NCBI GenBank assembly: GCA_001873285.1
Contig: MNYV01000075.1
Location: 1-34,572 of the forward strand
Source of the DNA: Nitrospirae bacterium CG2_30_53_67
GTDB taxonomy: Bacteria; CG2-30-53-67
Reading direction: 5' to 3'
DNA length: 34,572 nt
The notes beneath the pieces are model-generated. The model did not search any database and was not told the DNA's origin. It saw nothing but the letters and a program-made list of their open reading frames with translations. Position numbers and translations under genes: made by a program. This document shows, piece after piece, positions 18,775 to 29,597 of this stretch. Within the stretch, counting starts at the first letter, position 1, and each line of letters starts with the position of its first letter.

Positions 18775-21030
18775 TCACTTCTTAACCAAAACTTCCTGTT
18801 CAAGGATTTTATACATGGTCAGGAGGGAGATCAGCCATGAAAGGGTGGACTCTGCGCCCTGATTCGCATTCACTCCGGTAGGCTGAATGCCGTCGCAGCA
18901 GCCCCCTGTTTCAAAATCATAGATCTGTACATTGAGGTCGTTTCGTCCCAGAAACCAGCTGAGACAGCGGTACCCCTCTTCAATCCACTTCCTCTCGCCA
19001 GTGGCACGAAAGGCCTCGGCACAGGCTTCGATCAGGCACATGGCTTCAATCGGTTGTTGATCAAAGGTAGATGAATCGCCTTCCCTGTTGTGCCAATCCG
19101 TATTCCCGATGATGGAGAGGTGACCTTCAGGCGCCTTCTGTCTGGCAAGCAGCCAGTTCAGGCTGTTGATCCCCATCTCGAACATTTCCGTGTGCGGTAT
19201 CCATTGGCCGGCCAGGATCAGTGCATGGGACAACTTGGCATTGGCATAGGTCACCTGATCTTCACACCACGGCCAGTCGTGAGAGGCCCTTTGCTTAAAG
19301 AGGTCAAACAGTTTTTCCCCAAGGACTGCGCGCAACCGACGGGCCGTCGTGTCCCCGCCGAATGCTTCCATATAGGCCTGCAGGCCGACAATGGCAAAGG
19401 CCCATGCCCTGGGTGACGTAAAGTTTTCCAGCGCAGGAAGACCCTCTGAAAAGAGACCCGCAGCCATTTTCCGGATCGAGTCACTCGGCGCGCATTTCAC
19501 GGCAGTGCCCAGCCCCCAGAGGGACCGGCCGTGGGAATCTTCACTTCCCATCTCTTCAAGCCAGCGTCTGTCATAGGACATGAAGTTTCTGAAGCGAGCG
19601 TTTCCCGGATTGAAAGAGTCGTTCATAAAGGAAAGATAGGTCTGAATCAACGGGACCACACCTTTATCCTTGAGCAGGGAGTAGTGCATGCAGGCAACAA
19701 TGAGCGCCCTGGCGTTATCATCGGCGCAGTAGCCATGGCTTCGGTCGGGGATGGAGTATTTCGCGTGCTGAAGCATCCCGGTGTCATCGGTCATGATTCT
19801 CATATGTTTCAAGTTGATGTCAGGAAGTTCACTGACGATCCTGGCATCCGGTCTTTCCGAAAATTGTGGTATGGCCTGGTCTTTTGTGTGCGTGAGCACT
19901 TTACCGATTAGCTTGAAGTAGCTTCGTCCCACTTCCTTCCAGATCATGGACCGGCCGAACCGGTAACACTTCTCGCGGATCTCCATGCGTTCTTCTTCAT
20001 GATCCAGCAAGTGGTTGACGGCTTCGGCCATGGCGTGATCGTCGTTGAAAGGGACGAGGCGCCCTCTCCCATCAGCCAGCATCTCCTTGGCATACCAGTA
20101 AGGCGTGGAAACAGCGGGGGTCCCCATGCCCGTACTATAGGCCAGGGTGCCGGATACGATCTGTTGTTCGTTAATGTATGGCGTGATATAGATGTCGGCC
20201 GCCGTGATATATTGAATCAGTGTGTCCATCCTGACAAAACGGTTCCGAAACAGGACATGATCGTTCATACCGAGCCGGTTGACCAGCTGATAAAGGCCTT
20301 GTTGGTAGGAATCTCCGGATTCCTTCACAACGTATGGATGGATTTGCCCGAGAATAATATAAACCGCATCGGGGTGGCGCTCAATAATCCCGGGCATGGC
20401 CTTGATCATCATGTCAAGCCCCTTTGCCGGGCTCAACAGGCCAAAGGTTAAAAGAATCTTATTCTCGCTCAAGCCAAGGTGATTTCGAAAGGTATCGGAC
20501 CTTTTAAAGGGAGTGTCAGGAATCCCGTGAGGGATGAATTCTATTTTTGAGTCGTCGATGCCGTACACTTCCTTCAACATCGAACGGGCCTTGTGGGCCA
20601 TGACCACCAATGATTCGGAATATCTTGCCAGTTCCTGAATGATGACACGCTGTTTGCCGAAAGGGTCCTGGAGGATTGTATGCAAGGTGGTAATGACCGG
20701 CATTCTCAGATTCTTGATCAGACGGATGATGTAGGCGCCGTCACTTCCCCCAAAAATGCCGAATTCGTGCTGGAGGATGGCGACATCGAATTTGTGCACA
20801 TTCAGAAAATCAGCGGCACGGATATAATCAGGCTGGACATTTGCTCTAATCTGGAACTTGACCCGGTCCGGGTAGTGATACCCTTCATCCATATCATCCA
20901 TGGCCACGGCGATGAGATTTTCATCGCTCTTTTCCATCTGACCTGCAAGGGCATCACACAGATCGCCAGTAAAGGTTGCAATACCGCACTGCCTGGGGAG
21001 GTAATTTCCTATGACTGCTATTTTTTTCAA
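18775..21030 (-). CDS. GT4 glycosyltransferase fused to an (alpha/alpha)6-barrel glycosidase-like domain
   Basis: The first ~400 residues are a GT-B fold, family-4-like glycosyltransferase: KKIAVIGNYLPRQCGIATFT at the start, ILQHEFGIFGG, HTILQDP, FIPHGIPDTPF and LLTFGLLSPAKGLD. The usual E-x7-E near SGTLAYSTGMGTP keeps only its first Glu clearly. The C-terminal ~350 residues are helical repeats with sugar-hydrolase-like motifs (SHGYCADDNARALI, RAWAFAIVGLQAY, STFDQQPIEAMCLIEAC), suggesting an (alpha/alpha)6 barrel. I chose the TTG at 21030, preceded by GGGGA, over the TTG at 21045, because a duplicated remnant near 24968 shows the same start. The substrate is unknown; GH130 neighbours suggest mannosides. 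Confidence 0.8.
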   Translation of the reverse strand: MKKIAVIGNYLPRQCGIATFTGDLCDALAGQMEKSDENLIAVAMDDMDEGYHYPDRVKFQIRANVQPDYIRAADFLNVHKFDVAILQHEFGIFGGSDGAYIIRLIKNLRMPVITTLHTILQDPFGKQRVIIQELARYSESLVVMAHKARSMLKEVYGIDDSKIEFIPHGIPDTPFKRSDTFRNHLGLSENKILLTFGLLSPAKGLDMMIKAMPGIIERHPDAVYIILGQIHPYVVKESGDSYQQGLYQLVNRLGMNDHVLFRNRFVRMDTLIQYITAADIYITPYINEQQIVSGTLAYSTGMGTPAVSTPYWYAKEMLADGRGRLVPFNDDHAMAEAVNHLLDHEEERMEIREKCYRFGRSMIWKEVGRSYFKLIGKVLTHTKDQAIPQFSERPDARIVSELPDINLKHMRIMTDDTGMLQHAKYSIPDRSHGYCADDNARALIVACMHYSLLKDKGVVPLIQTYLSFMNDSFNPGNARFRNFMSYDRRWLEEMGSEDSHGRSLWGLGTAVKCAPSDSIRKMAAGLFSEGLPALENFTSPRAWAFAIVGLQAYMEAFGGDTTARRLRAVLGEKLFDLFKQRASHDWPWCEDQVTYANAKLSHALILAGQWIPHTEMFEMGINSLNWLLARQKAPEGHLSIIGNTDWHNREGDSSTFDQQPIEAMCLIEACAEAFRATGERKWIEEGYRCLSWFLGRNDLNVQIYDFETGGCCDGIQPTGVNANQGAESTLSWLISLLTMYKILEQEVLVKK

Positions 21031-21074
21031 TGATTCTGTCCCCAAAATATAGGGTTTGAGTGTTAAAGAGCTTT

Positions 21075-21098
21075 AGGGGTCAAGGGTCCAAGTGGAAT
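21075..21098. repeat. Fragment of the GTTCAAGG-type palindromic element
   Basis: AGGGGTCAAGGGTCCAAGTGG resembles one arm of the larger elements. It covers the last codons and stop of the nagB-like gene, so again a repeat end coincides with a gene's 3' end. Confidence 0.5.
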
Positions 21099-21856
21099 TG
21101 GGAATATTGTTTGCAGAAATTATTTGGCAAAAGCTTCGCTGCTTTTAAATCCAAAAACATATAAACTTTAGATTTTTTTTGCAAGACAGACGCAGGACAT
21201 TTTGGAGTTACTTCTCCCAACAGGCTTTCTGCCAAAATTCTTGACTTTGATTCTCCGCTAACTAAACAAAAAATTTCTTTGGATTTCATAATTTGTTTTA
21301 TTGACATCGTAATAGCTTTTTGAGGCACATTATCAACGGAAGGGAAATATCCTTTTTTAAATTGATTTTTTTTATTAAGATCATCCAATTCAACGACAAT
21401 ATATGGATCTTTTGTTAAAAGATCAGCCGGCGGATCATTAAAAGCAATGTGGCCATTTACCCCAATCCCTATAAATGTCAGGTCAACAACATATTGAGAA
21501 ATTAATTTATTTAATCGGTGACATTCTGTTTCAGCATTTACCGAATCGCCATTAATAAAATGAATTTCTCCGGGATGAACAATATCCACCAACCGTTCTT
21601 TTAAATATTTGCGAAAACTGGCAGGATGTTCTTTGCCAAGACCGATATATTCATCCAAATGAAAAATTGTAATTTTCCTCCAATCAATTCCCGGAAATGC
21701 GGTCAGTTCTTTTAAAAAGGCAATTTGAGTTCTTCCCGCTGCCGCCACCAGGCAAGCCCTGTTTTTTTTATCAATACATTGCTGAATTCTCTCCGTTGCC
21801 AACTTGGCGGCGGCGATAGCTAACTGATTCTCTGTCTCAAATAAATAAACGTTCAT
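21080..21856 (-). CDS. Glucosamine-6-phosphate deaminase (NagB)-like protein
   Basis: The family turns glucosamine-6-phosphate into fructose-6-phosphate and ammonia, in the cytoplasm. The 258 residues show FHLDEYIGL (65-73, with the base D68), IGIGVNGHIAFNDPP (129-143) and the conserved helix VPQKAITMSIKQIMKSKE. The N-terminal phosphate loop reads AAAGRTQ instead of the more usual ATG-S/T-T-P. The start is ATG 21856, with no purine-rich ribosome-binding site visible. It is AT-rich like its three upstream neighbours and lies 20 bases after the glycosidase-like gene. Related sugar-phosphate isomerases of this type occur in glycoside-use clusters, so the exact sugar phosphate is uncertain. Confidence 0.8.
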   Translation of the reverse strand: MNVYLFETENQLAIAAAKLATERIQQCIDKKNRACLVAAAGRTQIAFLKELTAFPGIDWRKITIFHLDEYIGLGKEHPASFRKYLKERLVDIVHPGEIHFINGDSVNAETECHRLNKLISQYVVDLTFIGIGVNGHIAFNDPPADLLTKDPYIVVELDDLNKKNQFKKGYFPSVDNVPQKAITMSIKQIMKSKEIFCLVSGESKSRILAESLLGEVTPKCPASVLQKKSKVYMFLDLKAAKLLPNNFCKQYSQFHLDP

Positions 21857-21875
21857 AATTATCAGGGGAATAATT

Positions 21876-23096
21876 TTATTTGTGTAGATTGTTGTGATTG
21901 TTGTTGTGCCGTCTCAGGTCATCAAAATACAGGGTGCTCTTTTTTTCCACACAAGCGGCTGCGTATAAATACATTGCTGCTGACCAGGTCTGCCAATCTT
22001 GCCCACGGGGTTCCCCTGTTTGGGCCTTAATCCATTCGTTAAAACCAAACGAAACATCATGGTCACGGGTTAATTTTACCAATGCGGTTAAACTAAGTAA
22101 CTTTTCTTCAGCTAAACGATATTTTTGCACTGCCACTATAGAAGCCACGTAAAAAGCAGATATAAAGGGCCAGACGCCTCCGTTATGATATTCGCCCGGA
22201 AGGTTAAATTGTTCATATCTTTTGTGCCAGTCAGGGTTAGTCGGCTGTATATATGGAATCAAGCAAGGCGGCAGTTTTATAGCCAACTCTTCTCTTTTAA
22301 TCAACGCCTCACTTTCAGCTTCAACCCAAAGCACCATCTCGAGCGCCCGGCTATGAGAAGCCACACCGGATAATATAGCCAAACTATTGCCCAATAAATC
22401 AAAACGGTCATCACTATGGATTTTATATGAAGACATCGCGTAATATGGTTTGTGTTTGACTACTAAACCTTCATGCACGTGCCGGTTTCTGCGCCCCCCT
22501 CGAACATTCAGCCTGTTCATCATTTTTTTTAACATATCAGCCCGGTCATTGAAGCCATAAAGCTTGAGATAGGTGTAAGTTAATGTATTAACATAAAGGC
22601 CAAATCCCATAACCCAGTGTTCATCTCGCCAGTCACTGGTCGGTAACTGAGCAACCATCTCTGAACAATCCGGACTTTGATATTCCATCCAAGTAAGTGC
22701 TTTTTGCGCCGCTTTTTCTAAAAACAATTTTTCTCCAGTCACTTTCCGATAAAGCGCTAATCCAATTAAAAATAACGGCGTGGTATCACTTGCGCCTAAA
22801 TCATGGGGATCATGGGCTAAGGAAGGTATATGTCCTAAGTTGGTTTGATTTTTAGCTAAAGCTTCCAATGTCCGACGCAATGAATCAATTAATTCTTCGT
22901 TTCCTGAAGCAAGCATTCCAAAGGCCGCAATCATTAAATCTCTGGTATAGGGCTCTGGATATCCCCAGCCAGCAGTTCTGGGCAGTTCTTGATAGGGTCC
23001 GTCAACGTTATGCAACAGTATCTCTATAGCAGCTTCCTTAGCTTCCTGAATTTCAGCTTTGTTTTTTTCATTAAGAACTGAATTTTTTTTGAACAT
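21876..23096 (-). CDS. (alpha/alpha)6-barrel glycoside hydrolase, GH100/debranching-like
   Basis: The 406 residues carry motifs of the GH100/amylo-alpha-1,6-glucosidase-like (alpha/alpha)6 fold: PEPYTRDLMIAAFGML (47-62), SLAHDPHDLGASDTTPLFLI, TSDWRDEHWVMGFGLY, EYHNGGVWPFISAFYV and QDWQTWSAAMYLYAAACV. It has no signal peptide, so it should act in the cytoplasm. Its ATG overlaps the previous gene's TAA by one base (TAATG) and AGGG lies upstream, so translation is likely coupled. It is AT-rich. The substrate cannot be read from sequence; alkaline/neutral invertase is only the nearest familiar family. Confidence 0.75.
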   Translation of the reverse strand: MFKKNSVLNEKNKAEIQEAKEAAIEILLHNVDGPYQELPRTAGWGYPEPYTRDLMIAAFGMLASGNEELIDSLRRTLEALAKNQTNLGHIPSLAHDPHDLGASDTTPLFLIGLALYRKVTGEKLFLEKAAQKALTWMEYQSPDCSEMVAQLPTSDWRDEHWVMGFGLYVNTLTYTYLKLYGFNDRADMLKKMMNRLNVRGGRRNRHVHEGLVVKHKPYYAMSSYKIHSDDRFDLLGNSLAILSGVASHSRALEMVLWVEAESEALIKREELAIKLPPCLIPYIQPTNPDWHKRYEQFNLPGEYHNGGVWPFISAFYVASIVAVQKYRLAEEKLLSLTALVKLTRDHDVSFGFNEWIKAQTGEPRGQDWQTWSAAMYLYAAACVEKKSTLYFDDLRRHNNNHNNLHK

Positions 23097-24235
23097 TATG
23101 ATATCCCTAAACGATTGGAAACAATTTCTACAAATTTTTTGGCTACTATTTTATAGTCGAAAAGCTTTGCTGCTCTTTTGCGTCCAGCTTCACCCATTTT
23201 TTTGCGTAAATCGGCGTCTTCCATCAACTTTAAAAGATAATCTGCTATATCATGAATACTGGCCCGAAAGTCTACAGTGCGGGGAGGGTTAAAAAGAACT
23301 CGGTGTCCCTTTTCATAACCGGATTCTTCACCAATGATGGCTTCGTTAACTACAATTTGGGTGGCAACATTCGCTAAAAATGCAGTTTCCCCATGTTTCA
23401 TGGTATCTAAAAAACCCATGGCATTGATTGCCAATACTGGTTTCCCGCAAGAATTTGCCTCTACAGCCGGCATACCAAATCCTTCCAATCTAGAGGGAGA
23501 CGCATAAATATCACAAGCTGCAAATAAATACGGCATAAAGTATCTTGACAGGACACCTTCAGAATAAAGCACATTTTTTTCTATACCCAAATGAGTGGCC
23601 AATTGCAGGTCAATAAGGTTTTGGGCTTTTGTACGAGCCTGTGGCCAAACCTTACATATATATCTCCAATCCGGCGCTTTTTGGTCAATTAGCGCTAATG
23701 CCTGCATGACTTCCTGAGCTCCTTTGGAAGCGGCATCTCCTCCTACAGTTAAAAGCATTAACTGGTCTTTAGGTATCCCGAATGTATTACGAACAGCTTG
23801 TACTTTTGAATCATCCTGATCCATCGGGGTAAAAACATTTGTATCACAACCAATGGGCAATACCTCTATATTGTCTCCTTTTACTCCGTCTCTAATATAT
23901 GTTTCTTTAACCCAATTTGAAGTAACTAAAATCAACGGCAACGAATTCAATATCTCATGATAATTCGCCACATAGCCGTCCGCTATTAACCAAGGAACAG
24001 GTTGAACACCATAACGTTTTGGATGAAGCACGATATGAGGGGTGTGCCCCCAATAGCCTATCCCCACAACGATATTCGGTTTAAACCATCTGTAATACCA
24101 CTCCTTTTCAGTTGGTGATTGAAAATGAACACCACATACGTCAACTCCTATCTCCTTAAGGCCTCGGTATAAAAGTGCTCCCTGGGTAGCAATCCCTCCG
24201 GGAGAAGTCGGATCAAACAACACCAAGACTTTCAT
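23096..24235 (-). CDS. GT4 family glycosyltransferase
   Basis: A 379-residue GT-B fold transferase. It begins MKVLVLFDPTSPGGIATQGA, the glycine-rich acceptor-side loop of GT4 enzymes, and has VLPIGCDTNVF, MLLTVGGDAASKGAQEV and the donor-binding E-x7-E segment LEGFGMPAVEANSCGKPV. The ATG at 24235 follows AGAGAGGTGG with good spacing; the GTG at 24244 has no such site. It is downstream of a PIG-L deacetylase gene and upstream of the glycosidase-like gene in the AT-rich block. A GT4 next to a PIG-L deacetylase recalls thiol-sugar pathways (MshA/B, BshA/B), but no cysteine ligase gene is here, so that reading is weak. Confidence 0.85.
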   Translation of the reverse strand: MKVLVLFDPTSPGGIATQGALLYRGLKEIGVDVCGVHFQSPTEKEWYYRWFKPNIVVGIGYWGHTPHIVLHPKRYGVQPVPWLIADGYVANYHEILNSLPLILVTSNWVKETYIRDGVKGDNIEVLPIGCDTNVFTPMDQDDSKVQAVRNTFGIPKDQLMLLTVGGDAASKGAQEVMQALALIDQKAPDWRYICKVWPQARTKAQNLIDLQLATHLGIEKNVLYSEGVLSRYFMPYLFAACDIYASPSRLEGFGMPAVEANSCGKPVLAINAMGFLDTMKHGETAFLANVATQIVVNEAIIGEESGYEKGHRVLFNPPRTVDFRASIHDIADYLLKLMEDADLRKKMGEAGRKRAAKLFDYKIVAKKFVEIVSNRLGIS

Positions 24236-24264
24236 TTTAACCACCTCTCTTAATTGCGAATACT

Positions 24265-24858
24265 TTAAAGTTTTCTGGTAGAATTAGCCTGCCAGAAAGC
24301 CTCAGTCTTTTGTGCGCATTTAGCTTCAAAACTATCATTAGCAAAACCATATATTTGTGTAATTATTTTATGTTTTTGATACCATATGCTTTGCGCCAAA
24401 TTTGACACTAAATCAGCTTTCTCGACAGGCTTCGGCAGATATTTTCCTTGTCCGTCTTCATAAGCAAACAACCACAATTTATCAGAAACAATATCGGCAC
24501 TTTCCCAAAGCTTGATTACGGCCTTACCGATTTGTTCATGTCGTAAATGAGAAGTGTATTCACCTTTCGGGTGGTGAGTTATTATAAGATCGTATTTTAT
24601 TAAAGGAAGTAAGGAAAGGATGTTTTGTTGGATCTCGTGAGTGCGTATTGGCTTGAGCTGAGGACTGTCGTCTAGATCACCCATTTTTCCGGCGGCGCCT
24701 AAAGCCCCGAGTGCTTTGTAGAACTTAGGAGCCCGATCTTTATCACTTGCACGGCATAATGACAGTATAAACCAATCCCAGCTTGGATTGCTCATGATCA
24801 AGCCCCCTGCCCATATAGTTTCGTCATCCGGATGGGCTACAATGACAGCCGCTTTCAT
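24265..24858 (-). CDS. PIG-L/LmbE family N-acetyl sugar deacetylase
   Basis: The family removes acetyl groups from GlcNAc-type residues using a zinc ion. The 197 residues from ATG 24858 open with MKAAVIVAHPDDETIWAGG, containing the AHPDDE zinc motif, and further on show ITHHPKGEYTSHLRHEQIG with the other metal His. Fragments SLCRASDKDRAPKF and GDLDDSPQL are also typical. A GTG at 24876 is possible, but neither start has a strong ribosome-binding site. It is the first gene of the AT-rich block. With the NagB-like gene it suggests use of an acetylated amino sugar. Confidence 0.85.
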   Translation of the reverse strand: MKAAVIVAHPDDETIWAGGLIMSNPSWDWFILSLCRASDKDRAPKFYKALGALGAAGKMGDLDDSPQLKPIRTHEIQQNILSLLPLIKYDLIITHHPKGEYTSHLRHEQIGKAVIKLWESADIVSDKLWLFAYEDGQGKYLPKPVEKADLVSNLAQSIWYQKHKIITQIYGFANDSFEAKCAQKTEAFWQANSTRKL

Positions 24859-24880
24859 TTGTCTATTAGCTTTCACCTAC

Positions 24881-24900
24881 ATTAAGTTATTTTACTTAAT
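24881..24900. repeat. Short hairpin at the block junction
   Basis: ATTAAGT and ACTTAAT form a 7-bp stem with a TATTTT loop, between the PIG-L start and the GT4 remnant. On the plus strand it is followed by TTTTG, but no plus-strand gene ends here. Confidence 0.35.
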
Positions 24901-24924
24901 TTTGTGTCCACTTTTTTAGCTTGC

Positions 24925-24968
24925 CTCACTTTGGGGACGTAGTTTTCCATGACTGCTGTTTTTTTCAA
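24925..24968 (-). pseudogene. Remnant of the 5' end of the GT4-(alpha/alpha)6 gene
   Basis: Read on the minus strand, TTGAAAAAAACAGCAGTCAT and following bases translate to LKKTAVMENYVP, matching the start LKKIAVIGNYLP of the gene at 21030, and the DNA agrees at most positions over about 38 bases up to GTCCCC. The similarity then ends abruptly. The TTG overlaps the TGA of the GH130 gene (TTGA) and has GGAGGGG upstream, as an intact start would. It marks where the GT4 gene once began, before the AT-rich block intervened. Confidence 0.75.
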
Positions 24969-26461
24969 TTCCCCTCCAAAACACTGGTGGTTCGGCTATT
25001 CAACATCCTGGACAGTAAATCCTTTACCGGAACAACCGCAATGCCTGACGAGGTATCCGACATGGAGTAAGGGATAATCAAGTCCTCGTTGTGGATCATG
25101 GCTCCGCAGGTATACAACACGTTCGGCACATACCCTTCACGCTCTTCTTCTGTGGGAGAAAGAAGCGGTTCAGACAGGCGGCCGATCACCTTTGTCGGAT
25201 CTTCCAGATCCAGCAGGCAGGCTCCAATGCAATATTTCCTCATGGGACCGACGCCGTGAGTTAACAGGATCCACCCTTCCTCGGTCTCAATGGGAGAGCC
25301 GCAATTGCCGATCTGTATGAACTCCCACGGATACCGTGGCTTCTGCAGAAGTTGGGCTTCTTGCCAGAAGTGAATATTGTCTGAAGACATGATAAACATG
25401 TTTTCACCATCCTGACGGGAGATCATCATATATTTCCCATTAATTTTTCTGGGGAAAAGGGCCATCCCTTTGTTCTGCACGGCATCCCCGTTGAGCGTTC
25501 GAATCTTGAAGTTGTTAAAGTCCCTGGTTTCCAGTAGCATGGGGAGGATATTAAAACCGTTGTAGGCGGTGTAGGTCGCATAGTAGATGGGTTCGTCGTC
25601 GCCATTGAAAAAATGTACGAATCGGGCATCCTCAATCCCCCGGCTTTCGTTTTCAGAGACCGGGAAGATGACTTTCTCTGATATCCTTTTCTCTTTTCTG
25701 AATCTTAATTCGTAATTGGATCTGGCGAGCCAGAGGATCTTCTCAACCGTGTCATGAAGCAAAGGCAGCCGCGCTCCTCTATGCGCGTCGAACTCCCGCT
25801 GAATAGCCGTCTCAAGCTCATAGAAAGAAAACCTGTCGGACAAGTCCTTCAAGATTTCATCGGAGACCTCGTTCTTTGACTCCATATCTTCCAGTTTCAA
25901 CTGGAACACGTATTTGTCGTAGGTCGGGTTCTTTATCACTTCAGGGGTCTCCACAAAGCGGCCCACTTCGTCGAAGTGGAGTTTATTCTTATCATCAAGA
26001 ATGCCGCTTCTGAACTCAATCGAGGAGATATGACCTTCGCCGGTGGAGCGAAAACTCAGAATAAATCGGACGCTCCCTTTGTTGAGATTGCTCTGATCCG
26101 TATGCTTCACGATGGAGGGGTTAAAAAAGGCCGCAGCTTGTACAGAGTATTCATGCGTAAAACAAGCCCCGATCAGGCACCGCCTGTCCCCGGACATCTT
26201 CGTTCCATTCGGGATATAATGTTTGATGACCTTGAAGTTCTTGTCAATTATCCGCCAGATGTCCTTGTGGCGGGTTGAAAAGTCAGTGATGATCTGGTTC
26301 AGGTTCTCCTTGACGTCATCCTCTGAAAGACCAAGAACACGTTGGATGATATGGTTGATCTGCTCAACACTGCTCGGCACGTAGAATTTGGCGATGACTC
26401 TGGAGGGCTCTGAAAAAAACCTTTTTTTTCTTCTTCGTATCTTTAAAGAATTATTATTCAT
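24965..26461 (-). CDS. GH130-family mannoside phosphorylase/mannosidase, long form
   Basis: GH130 enzymes are five-bladed beta-propellers that split beta-mannosides by phosphorolysis or hydrolysis. The 498 residues have an N-terminal extension of about 130 residues and then the propeller: GSVRFILSFRSTGEGHI, ENESRGIEDARFVHF (the position of the catalytic Asp), YYATYTAYNG, NKGMALFPRKINGKYMMISRQD, QIGNCGSPIETEEGWILLTHG, and YVPNVLYTCGAMIH. ATG 26461 follows GGAGAAG with nine-base spacing, better than the frame's first start at 26509. The shorter GH130 gene lies upstream. No signal peptide is seen, so action is probably cytoplasmic. Phosphorylase versus hydrolase cannot be decided by eye. Confidence 0.88.
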   Translation of the reverse strand: MNNNSLKIRRRKKRFFSEPSRVIAKFYVPSSVEQINHIIQRVLGLSEDDVKENLNQIITDFSTRHKDIWRIIDKNFKVIKHYIPNGTKMSGDRRCLIGACFTHEYSVQAAAFFNPSIVKHTDQSNLNKGSVRFILSFRSTGEGHISSIEFRSGILDDKNKLHFDEVGRFVETPEVIKNPTYDKYVFQLKLEDMESKNEVSDEILKDLSDRFSFYELETAIQREFDAHRGARLPLLHDTVEKILWLARSNYELRFRKEKRISEKVIFPVSENESRGIEDARFVHFFNGDDEPIYYATYTAYNGFNILPMLLETRDFNNFKIRTLNGDAVQNKGMALFPRKINGKYMMISRQDGENMFIMSSDNIHFWQEAQLLQKPRYPWEFIQIGNCGSPIETEEGWILLTHGVGPMRKYCIGACLLDLEDPTKVIGRLSEPLLSPTEEEREGYVPNVLYTCGAMIHNEDLIIPYSMSDTSSGIAVVPVKDLLSRMLNSRTTSVLEGN

Positions 26462-26521
26462 ACTCAAGTTCTTCTCCAATTTAGTGTGCAAGAAGAAATT
26501 TGGTGACACCCCTCATCCTAA

Positions 26522-26544
26522 CCTTCTCCCCATGGGGGAGAAGG
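26522..26544. repeat. C/G-rich hairpin between the two GH130 genes
   Basis: CCTTCTCCCC and GGGGAGAAGG are perfect 10-bp arms around ATG. The preceding CACCCCTCATCCTAAC is of a widely dispersed intergenic type. Just left of it, TTCTCCAATTTAGTGTGCAAG (26475-26495) resembles the left end of the long palindromic elements. No T tract follows, so termination is uncertain. Confidence 0.55.
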
Positions 26545-26583
26545 GATATTTAAACTTCCTTTTATCTTCAGCCTTCCAATCTC

Positions 26584-27519
26584 CTAATAAGCTGCCCTTG
26601 AATGCTTCAGGCACATCTCCACAAGATCCGAGATGGTAGCGGACCCAACACACATGACGGTATCCGCGCCGCCCCAATAAAGCTTTACAGTGCCGTCCTC
26701 TTCCGGAACGGCGCCGCAGGTGAAGACAACATTGGGAACATAGCCGGTCGTCTCCCAGGGATCTTCGGGCTGAAGAATCCAGTCATCAGAGATACCGATC
26801 ACTTTGGACGGATCGTCCAAGTCGTGTAAGGCCACGCCTAACCTGTAAACCGCACCTGCCATAGTCCGGTAGACCCCGTGGTAGATATGGAGCCATCCTT
26901 GATCGGTCCTGAACGGGGTGGCTCCAGGACCGATCTTCAGCTCATCCCAGTGATAGGTCACCGGTTTCATCACGACCCTCGACTCTCCCCAATGGATCAG
27001 GTCGGGAGAATAGGATATGTGTATGGACCAAGGTGATATCTCCGAATGAGGGCGGTCAAGACGAGCATATCGCCCGTCAAACTTCTGGGGGAAGATGACC
27101 ACATTTCGCATGTCCGGTTGGGAAATAAGAGCCATACGCTCGACACTCTTAAAATCCGTGGTTCGTGCCAGGGCAATCCTCACTCCATGTCTGGAGTAAG
27201 CGCTGTAGGTAAGCAGATACTCGTCATCTATGGCACAGATACGCAGATCCTCGACCCCATACTCTTCGTATTCGGCGAAGACGCCTTGTTTTGCAGGAAC
27301 AAGGAAAGGCTCCGGACGCACGGTAAAGGAGTAACCCTCTTCGCTTTCCGCCAGACCGATGACACACCGGCCGTTTAAAAGATGGGAACGGAAGAGCATC
27401 ACGTACCTCCCGTCATGTTTGACCATCCCGGCATTATGAACGGTAGAGACGGGGTAGGGTACGTCATCACAGGTCAGAATGGGGTTCTTTTCATACCTTC
27501 GAACCACAGGATTTTTCAA
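26584..27519 (-). CDS. GH130-family mannoside phosphorylase, short form
   Basis: About 311 residues with the standard GH130 propeller: YPVSTVHNAGMVKHDGRYVMLFRSH, EEYGVEDLRICAIDDEYLLTYSAY (catalytic Asp in EDLR), RNVVIFPQKFDGRYARLDRP, KIGPGATPFRTDQGWLHIYHG, and TGYVPNVVFTCGAV. It resembles the phosphorylase-type members (mannosylglucose or manno-oligosaccharide phosphorylases). An in-frame ATG at 27525 directly abuts AGAGGAG; the TTG at 27519 has a normal six-base spacing and is preferred. Only a few bases separate it from the upstream GT4-cupin gene, so they are co-transcribed. Confidence 0.9.
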   Translation of the reverse strand: MKNPVVRRYEKNPILTCDDVPYPVSTVHNAGMVKHDGRYVMLFRSHLLNGRCVIGLAESEEGYSFTVRPEPFLVPAKQGVFAEYEEYGVEDLRICAIDDEYLLTYSAYSRHGVRIALARTTDFKSVERMALISQPDMRNVVIFPQKFDGRYARLDRPHSEISPWSIHISYSPDLIHWGESRVVMKPVTYHWDELKIGPGATPFRTDQGWLHIYHGVYRTMAGAVYRLGVALHDLDDPSKVIGISDDWILQPEDPWETTGYVPNVVFTCGAVPEEDGTVKLYWGGADTVMCVGSATISDLVEMCLKHSRAAY

Positions 27520-27530
27520 GACCATCTCCT

Positions 27531-28883
27531 CTACTTCCGACCGAAGTCATCCTCGATCCTTACAATATCATCCTCACCGAAATAGTCTCCCATTTGTACC
27601 TCAATAAAGGCCATGTTCTCCTTTGTCGGATTTTCGATACGATGGACACCCCCCCTCGGGATGTCTATGGAATCGCCTTTATTGAGCCGGATCTGTTTCC
27701 CATCCAATGTGACCAGGCCCTCACCATATACCGCAGTCCAATGCTCGGCACGACGCTGGTGCTTCTGGAGGCTCAGCCGCTTTCCGGGATAGACCACGAT
27801 ACGTTTGACTTTGTGGTCCGGTTTGTCGGAAAGGATCGTGTAGTATCCCCACGGACGATGGTCCTCACGTTTTGTCAATTCAAGGATCTGCTCGTAAACT
27901 TGAATGTAATCATTCACCATACGCTCAGCAGAAAAGTTCTTCTCCACAAACCCGCGGCAGGCCGAGCGGTCTATTGCAGACAACTCTTTCACGGCGTCAA
28001 CCGCCTCCTCAACATTGGAGACCAGGAAACCATTCACACCATGCCGAATCAGCTCCGGCATACTGCCCCGGTTAAAAGCAATCACCGGCGTCCCACAGCA
28101 CATGGCCTCAATAATGGAAAGACCGAAGGGCTCCTCAAAACTGATAGGGTGTAACAAAGCGCATGCCTTGCCGAGGAGTTTATCCCTCTGCTCCGGACCC
28201 ACGCTTCCCACATAGGTGACATGATCACCATCGATATGAGGCTTCACCTCTAATTCAAAATAAGCCTCGTCCTGAATCACACCGGCCATGATGAGTTTCT
28301 TGCCTGCGGCCCTGGCAATTTCGATTGCCTCTTTGGCTCCTTTTTCCGGGTGGATCCGGCCGAAGAAGAGAAGCGTGTCCTCAGGTTCAGGTACGAAAGT
28401 AAAGCCATCGAGGTCAATACCGTGGTGGATCGTAGCAATGTAGTTCAGATTCGGTGAACGGTCGGCCTCGCTAATGGCAACATAGAAGGTCTTTTCGTTA
28501 TATTTTTCATAAACAGGCAGGATGCGGGGGGATGAAAAGCCGTGAATCGTTGTGAGAACAGGCGTCGTCACCAGCTTGCTGTATGTCAAAGGGAGAAAAT
28601 CAAAATGGTTGTGAATCAGGTCAAATTCATCGGCCCGGTCAAAGAGTTCGGAAATGTGGAGGCACTCCCAGACCTTGGGTTCGATCTGCCTGTTCTCTTC
28701 GTAGCCTCCTTTGCAGACGGCATGGAGTTGCCCCTTTGTGATGGAGTCCGCCGTGGCAAAAAGGGTCACGTCGACCCCTTTGGCGATCAGCCCCTCCGTC
28801 AACAGAGACACGACACTTTCCCATGGTCCGTAATGTCGTGGAGGCGTTCTCCAAGCAATCGGTGAAAGCATCGCTATGCGCAT
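27531..28883 (-). CDS. GT4 glycosyltransferase fused to a mannose-6-phosphate isomerase-type cupin
   Basis: From ATG 28883 the protein has 450 residues. The first ~340 are a GT4 transferase: MRIAMLSPIAWRTPPRHYGP, LIHNHFDFLPL, TIHHGIDLDGF, LLFFGRIHPEKGAKEAIEIA and the donor motif FEEPFGLSIIEAMCCGTPV with E-x7-E intact. The last ~105 are a cupin of the type found at the C-terminus of bifunctional GDP-mannose pyrophosphorylase/phosphomannose isomerases: RPWGYYTIL, KVKRIVVYPGKRLSLQKH, RAEHWTAVYGEGLVTLDG, IPRGGVHRIENP, and GEDDIVRIEDDFGR. It may therefore couple mannose-phosphate handling with transfer. It heads the cluster. The upstream start at 28964 adds an unconvincing leader; no strong ribosome-binding site precedes 28883. 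Confidence 0.88.
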   Translation of the reverse strand: MRIAMLSPIAWRTPPRHYGPWESVVSLLTEGLIAKGVDVTLFATADSITKGQLHAVCKGGYEENRQIEPKVWECLHISELFDRADEFDLIHNHFDFLPLTYSKLVTTPVLTTIHGFSSPRILPVYEKYNEKTFYVAISEADRSPNLNYIATIHHGIDLDGFTFVPEPEDTLLFFGRIHPEKGAKEAIEIARAAGKKLIMAGVIQDEAYFELEVKPHIDGDHVTYVGSVGPEQRDKLLGKACALLHPISFEEPFGLSIIEAMCCGTPVIAFNRGSMPELIRHGVNGFLVSNVEEAVDAVKELSAIDRSACRGFVEKNFSAERMVNDYIQVYEQILELTKREDHRPWGYYTILSDKPDHKVKRIVVYPGKRLSLQKHQRRAEHWTAVYGEGLVTLDGKQIRLNKGDSIDIPRGGVHRIENPTKENMAFIEVQMGDYFGEDDIVRIEDDFGRK

Positions 28884-29120
28884 AAGGTATATGTAACCTA
28901 TATTCCGATTGACAGCAAGGTTTTTCCCCTCATAGGGGAAGAAGAACCGCCACAGCCCATCCAAAACCGACGAGAAAATTGATCCTTCGATAGTATGAAT
29001 ACCGGGAAATCTAACACTCGCTCAGAAATATGTCAAACTGAAACATGATGGCCGGGATCCTGGTTCACATTCGCCATACGGCGCTTACCGATAAGGCTCT
29101 AATGCGGCAGAGTTATGGAT

Positions 29121-29597
29121 TCAAAGAGGTCGTGGTCGGTCCGGATCGGAGTTCTTCAGGGATTCCAATGCTTCCACATCGGCCAAATCCTTGGTTCTTC
29201 CTGACGTCCTCTTGTTTCGAATGAGGTCGTCAATCGAAAGAATATGCACTTCGATTCCCTCAATGTTCAGAGACAGTGACCTTCGATACGTCTCCTCAAA
29301 CTGAAGTCCGGATGCCGCGGTGATGATGTCGATTCGCCTCGGGGCAACTCCGATCTGGAAAATGGTCCCATCCTTCTGAAGGTCTTCTTTGGTCAGATTG
29401 TGCAGCGGGGCGCCGAAGCGGCGCAATGCCCGTAATACGGCATCAGCGTTCTGAGGTGACGGCATGACCCAAATGTCTATGTCCATGGTGGCCCGGGGAT
29501 AACCGTGGGCTGCCATGGCATAGGCGCCGACGAGGAGGAACCTAACCTTCTCGTCGGACAAGACTTGTAATATGTCTTTGTAGTCTTCGTTCAGCAT
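29121..29597 (-). CDS. DUF6036/AbiEii-like nucleotidyltransferase
   Basis: A 158-residue protein of the minimal nucleotidyltransferase fold: FLLVGAYAMAAHGYPRATMDIDIWV (about 20-44) holds the G-S/A box and the D-x-D metal pair, and RRIDIITAASGLQFEETYRR the third acidic position. The C-terminal HILSIDDLIRNKRTSGRTKDLADVEAL is the usual family tail. Such proteins are often paired with a small partner and grouped with toxin-antitoxin systems, but here no activity has been shown. It overlaps the 63-residue upstream gene by 56 bases and shares its promoter. Confidence 0.85.
   Translation of the reverse strand: MLNEDYKDILQVLSDEKVRFLLVGAYAMAAHGYPRATMDIDIWVMPSPQNADAVLRALRRFGAPLHNLTKEDLQKDGTIFQIGVAPRRIDIITAASGLQFEETYRRSLSLNIEGIEVHILSIDDLIRNKRTSGRTKDLADVEALESLKNSDPDRPRPL

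Follow-up and report, generated by a model that had tools for sequence, protein, structure and literature searches.

Probable insertion of an AT-rich PIG-L/GT4/GH100-like operon at a glycosyltransferase gene start in the GH130 cluster of a Nitrospirae bacterium

Background

The pairing of a GT4 glycosyltransferase with a PIG-L family de-N-acetylase is familiar from the synthesis of low-molecular-weight thiols, where it is represented by BshA/BshB and MshA/MshB. The (α/α)6 fold is that of the GH100 neutral/alkaline invertases InvA and InvB, and the GH130 family is one of mannoside phosphorylases. With respect to the uptake of foreign DNA, single-crossover integration and homology-facilitated illegitimate recombination are processes that leave the incoming DNA flanked by a duplicated homologous segment; duplication of the homologous segment was the predominant outcome among the events examined in an E. 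coli study in which the incoming DNA had one homologous end (PMC3240628).

A locus from Nitrospirae bacterium CG2_30_53_67 shares features with each of these systems. It contains a four-gene block that combines a GT4/PIG-L pair with a putative (α/α)6 glycosidase that appears to resemble InvA and InvB in its predicted fold and in its C-terminal sequence, lies among GH130 and GT4 genes, and has foreign DNA bracketed by a short duplication. A first-pass annotation, made from the sequence alone, had interpreted the block as a functional module gained by insertion with duplication of the start of the target gene.

Results and Discussion

Organization of the locus

The window, by which we mean the whole stretch of DNA analysed (34,572 nucleotides), is an entire contig, C75, of a 2.36 Mb genome in 183 contigs. 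From position 28964 downwards its minus strand encodes a GT4-cupin protein, two GH130 proteins, the four-gene block, a GT4-(α/α)6 fusion protein, and then UvrB and UvrC. The left partner of the original junction is GH130a (24965..26509; PF04041, 118 bits) and the right partner is the fusion gene (18775..21045), in which the start homologous to that of the relative G003 is the TTG at 21030. The remainder of the resident cluster, namely the second GH130 gene (GH130b) and the GT4-cupin gene (26584..28964), was identified with Pfam and has the same order as in G003. Between the two partners lie genes for a PIG-L family deacetylase (module gene 1, 24265..24876; PF02585, 37.7 bits against a cut-off of 28.2), a GT4 glycosyltransferase (module gene 2, 23096..24244; PF00534, 84.6 bits), a GH100-like (α/α)6 glycosidase (module gene 3, 21876..23096; PF12899, 46 bits; GH100/GDE_C-like) and a NagB-like sugar-phosphate isomerase/deaminase (21080..21856; PF01182, 83.8 bits). 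All four block genes, like the genes on either side, are on the minus strand, and each is open from start to stop; Pfam agrees with the identities that had been assigned to them and to the GH130 flank at first pass.

The GT4-cupin gene itself (27531-28964) encodes a C-terminal mannose-6-phosphate isomerase domain, which seems to be absent from relatives of about 340 amino acids in Balneolaceae (L109:5650-6663) and Bacteroidales (L052:11508-12542). Just upstream of the cluster, at 29121-29597, is a small nucleotidyltransferase gene of the DUF6036/AbiEii kind.

Composition of the block

Across 21001-25000 the GC content falls from 0.50-0.56 to 0.34-0.44, the individual block genes having 36-42% GC. 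GC3 is 0.30 in the NagB-like gene, 0.39 in the GH100-like gene, 0.34 in the GT4 gene and 0.36 in the PIG-L gene, as against 0.60-0.73 in the other window genes tested. Codon usage, measured as distance from the non-block genes, gives the same division: the block genes lie at 0.61-0.79 and all remaining genes tested at 0.18-0.30. Among the latter are the immediate neighbours, GH130a and the GT4 fusion gene, whose usage is host-like. The AT-richness remarked upon at first pass is thus borne out by a break in GC, GC3 and codon usage at both junctions. The low overall GC of the GH130 gene (0.474) does not mark it as foreign, because its GC3 of 0.614 is the same as that of its G003 ortholog.

The empty site

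G003, which belongs to another genus of the same family, contains the GT4-cupin, GH130b, GH130a and GT4 fusion genes in this order and without the block, the stop codon of GH130a overlapping the start of the fusion gene. GH130a of the window and its G003 counterpart, the gene adjoining the GT4 fusion there, are 77% identical; the window's fusion protein is 83% identical to that of G003 and 90% identical to a fragment in G002. A relative with GH130 and the GT4 fusion adjacent, which the earlier reading had led one to expect, therefore exists, and it is a single one: the site itself could be tested in G003 alone, since the G002 contig breaks off within the GT4 gene and the other relatives have no close relative of the fusion gene or of GH130a. 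Neither the GH100-like nor the NagB-like protein was found in 7 other genomes of the genus, family and class.

The resident cluster (18775-28964) is itself patchily distributed, being complete in the window, cut by the contig end in G003 and present in part in G002; it was not found in the remaining family members examined. It is followed by UvrB here and by a DEAD-box-helicase-like gene in G003 (locus L022).

The start remnant and the junctions

A TTG overlapping the stop codon of GH130 opens a start remnant (24933..24968, minus strand), in which the first 12 codons of the GT4-(α/α)6 gene recur in decayed form (LKKTAVMENYVP). When TTGAAAAAAACAGCAGTCATGGAAAACTACGTCCCC (24968-24933, minus strand) is set against TTGAAAAAAATAGCAGTCATAGGAAATTACCTCCCC (21030-20995), 31 of 36 bases are identical and 5 differ, four of the differences being protein-changing; the copy recognized at first pass thus survives alignment. 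The best match in 200 Markov sequences of the same nearest-neighbour make-up reached 24/36, i.e. at least 12 mismatches, and the next-best place in the window for the GT4 start has 14. The similarity is lost abruptly at about 38 bases, the flanking stretches of 40 bases having only 9/40 and 11/40 identities, and the right and left junctions show no similarity beyond about 1 base upstream of the start. The DNA adjoining the two copies is AT-rich: the presumably foreign spacer before the PIG-L gene (24877..24932, minus strand) has a GC content of 0.28 at 24883-24932, and the right junction (21031..21079, minus strand), between the NagB-like gene and the intact GT4 start, one of 0.38 at 21046-21079.

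A three-way comparison with G003, with the small numbers that 36 sites afford, shows 4 differences common to the remnant and the intact copy, 4 changes private to the remnant, none private to the intact copy, and 1 site at which all three differ. Because the remnant has those 4 bases in common with the intact gene against G003, the most natural interpretation is that it was copied, within this lineage, from the gene start of the lineage itself. The copy that is no longer a gene is the one that has changed, the left copy being in decay. The divergence between remnant and intact copy is 0.14 (95% interval 0.05-0.29), and the fourfold-site divergence of this genome is 0.40 from G003 and 0.24 from G002. 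These values accord with an insertion later than the separation from G003, since the divergence of the remnant, 0.14, is to be set against a fourfold-site value of 0.40.

The remnant also opens a 28-codon frame (24882-24968) that ends 5 bases before the GTG start of the PIG-L gene, and which could be either a coupling leader or a chance occurrence.

Origin of the block at this site

These observations make it very probable that AT-rich DNA amounting to about 3.9 kb and carrying the block was inserted where the GT4-(α/α)6 gene begins, a gene that formerly overlapped the end of GH130. Gain by insertion with duplication of the target start, the central proposal of the first-pass annotation, is upheld by the foreign composition, the empty site in G003 and the repeat of 31/36 bases. 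One copy of the first 36-38 bases of the GT4 gene flanks the insert on each side, which are the direct repeats that a Campbell-type integration would leave.

As to how the start came to be duplicated, the likeliest route, which we would put at roughly an even chance, is a single crossover at the short homology in the GT4 start. The incoming DNA would have carried the operon followed by the GT4-fusion gene, or a piece of it, as in G224, on a circular or circularised molecule. A single recombination event in the conserved start of the fusion gene, whether an ordinary crossover or a one-sided homologous one, would then have placed the foreign DNA between short duplications, leaving the native start beside GH130, truncated at the end of the donor piece, and re-forming the full gene on the other side. 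The insert has the same orientation as the GH130 operon, and the two probably share a transcript. Counting against the model, the closest candidate for a donor sequence is only 63% identical over the concatenation, too distant for a base-by-base comparison; 36-38 bases are short for homologous recombination, and the repeat could be a duplication by another route.

One such route is template switching while a staggered or broken end was being repaired, whereby the GT4 start would have been duplicated at a random site and the insert kept by selection for co-expression. The abrupt end of the repeat on both sides is what a target duplication would give; however, an insertion in the same orientation between the very families that flank the operon in other phyla is more simply explained by shared homology, and we regard this route as having a real but clearly minor share of the probability.

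An IS3-type mobile element, which might have carried or captured the block and left the repeat as a by-product, is improbable. The spacer does contain a motif, AAAGTGGACACAAAATTAAG (24895-24914; AAAGTGGACAC...TTAAGT), that resembles the left end of IS3A, with a score reached by 3.3% of shuffles. Nevertheless, there is no transposase among the block genes and no matching second end, nor hence a pair of terminal repeats, within the window; the motif is present in a single copy in the genome and is mostly missing at IS3-family loci of other genomes. IS3 target duplications are of 3-5 bases, and that of 36-38 bases is far longer. A search of plasmid records likewise gave no convincing match to the motif. 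In view of the weak resemblance (p ~0.03), the single copy and the irregular occurrence at IS3-family loci, we rejected an IS3 origin.

It is more improbable still that the block was ancestral at the site and was lost in G003 and the other relatives. The gene order GH130-PIG-L-GT4-GH100 in Balneolaceae and Bacteroidales and the order GT4-GH100-GT4 fusion in G224 would accord with such a history, and a clean deletion of the block could be had by recombining the 36-base repeats. Against this, the block has foreign codon usage between two host-like flanks, the second start that lies, cut short, between GH130 and the block requires that GH130 and the GT4 fusion gene had earlier been adjacent, and the remnant carries bases specific to this lineage. 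Relatives with all the genes in order and of uniform composition, which the first-pass annotation had named as evidence against insertion, are represented only by distant phyla and without NagB, the site within the family being empty.

Finally, an assembly chimera, although the genome is a metagenome assembly in 183 contigs and the block deviates in composition, is extremely improbable, since an assembler would not be misled by the junction copies, whose longest exact run in common is 11 bases, and the inserted genes are known partners of the genes that flank them.

The operon in other genomes and its donor

A search with the GH100-like protein in the genomes of 84,980 species yielded 80 loci that were kept, to which two loci (G224 and G257) were added. 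In the loci that hold all three of the PIG-L, GT4 and GH100-like genes, these are in the same order and on the same strand without exception (74/74), mostly in Bacteroidota and Phycisphaerae, and in 32 of the 74 the operon has near it, within the stretch examined, a gene related to a GH130 or GT4 neighbour in the window. No NagB gene occurs in any of them (0/74), and the closest relatives of the NagB-like protein have no neighbour gene in common; NagB was accordingly rejected as a member of the module. Of the four-gene functional module proposed at first pass, a fixed operon of three genes therefore stands, and the NagB-like gene, which does not accompany it elsewhere, falls away.

In the Balneolaceae locus L109 (2198-11179) all seven non-NagB genes are contiguous on one strand, with GH130a directly before PIG-L, and in the Bacteroidales loci L037 and L074 GH130a is likewise before PIG-L. 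G224 has the order GT4, GH100-like, GT4 fusion, which is that of the window minus NagB. Since the order GH130-PIG-L-GT4-GH100, without NagB, exists in Balneolaceae and Bacteroidales, the block is unlikely to have landed here at random. The mean column identity of the module GT4 is 83% (13 sequences), and this degree of conservation suggests one dedicated function.

In trees of the GH100-like protein, the GT4 protein and the concatenated sequences, the window groups with Planctomycetota, G224 and G257 (SH-aLRT 95-99%), on a branch that is long (0.80-0.88), which renders the placement uncertain, and that lies outside the Bacteroidota set; Bacteroidota were for this reason rejected as the direct donor. 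The trees of the block genes proposed at first pass thus join the GH100-like and GT4 genes to other lineages, and that of PIG-L gives no resolved placement of the window. The best identity to any sequence over the concatenation being 63%, we infer that the donor was an unsampled AT-rich lineage.

Putative functions

In the PIG-L protein the motif AHPDDE and, in the conserved histidine region, GEYTxHxRHE are invariant in 12 sequences, in keeping with a PIG-L/LmbE deacetylase. The predicted fold of the GH100-like protein (model mean pLDDT 73) finds its best match in the GH100 neutral/alkaline invertases (E 7.6e-10), and appears to be shared, more distantly, with mannosylglycerate and glucosylglycerate hydrolases; its PF12899 match is over the cut-off and covers the C-terminal half only. 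The NagB-like protein falls under the cut-off of the NCBIfam nagB equivalog (158.2 vs 236.9 bits), and none of the three module proteins is named by NCBIfam above its cut-offs.

The presence of PIG-L with GT4 suggests N-acetylhexosamine transfer and de-N-acetylation. The likeliest product would be an intracellular oligosaccharide containing mannose, and perhaps glucosamine, mannose being proposed because two GH130 genes lie alongside. We tentatively suggest, while considering it less likely than not, that the operon adds GlcNAc-type transfer, de-N-acetylation and trimming to a pathway, already resident, for the synthesis and phosphorolysis of an intracellular oligosaccharide containing mannose. 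A bolder conjecture, and a quite doubtful one, is that the seven genes (two GH130, GT4-cupin, GT4-(α/α)6, PIG-L, GT4 and GH100-like) constitute a widely exchanged pathway for an amino-sugar-containing mannoside, the parts of which meet by homology-guided insertion, with one such step caught here and the decayed start serving as a 28-codon leader that couples the translation of GH130 and PIG-L. A conserved, uncharacterised operon that accompanies GH130 genes across several phyla may have a product that is accessible to biochemistry, for which the L109 contig is a good starting point. Our literature search, which was incomplete, found no paper describing the PIG-L/GT4/GH100-like operon.

Comparison with known systems

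The block departs from the thiol systems in having a glycosidase as partner and no ligase, and bacillithiol or mycothiol synthesis was rejected on scores far below the cut-offs (45/274 for BshA, 72/462 for MshA and 26/195 for BshB2). The GH100-like protein differs from InvA and InvB in being only 17-18% identical, with a TM-score of about 0.6 and a sequence match confined to the C-terminal half. The duplications sequenced in the E. coli study were of 109-950 bp, arising from 1 kb of homology (PMC3240628), whereas here the duplication is of 36-38 bases, old and decayed. A further likeness is to the operon of Bacteroidota and Balneolota (L109, L037 and L074), in which GH130 is directly followed by the same three genes, co-oriented and in unchanged order, but which lacks NagB and has the GT4 fusion elsewhere or on the other strand; judging from gene order, the insertion appears to have recreated an arrangement known in other phyla. 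The locus offers a clean example of the growth of a gene cluster, in which the empty site, the insert and the decaying scar are all readable, and the event is an ordinary horizontal transfer with an unusually clean anatomy, having landed between genes that are the operon's partners in other phyla.
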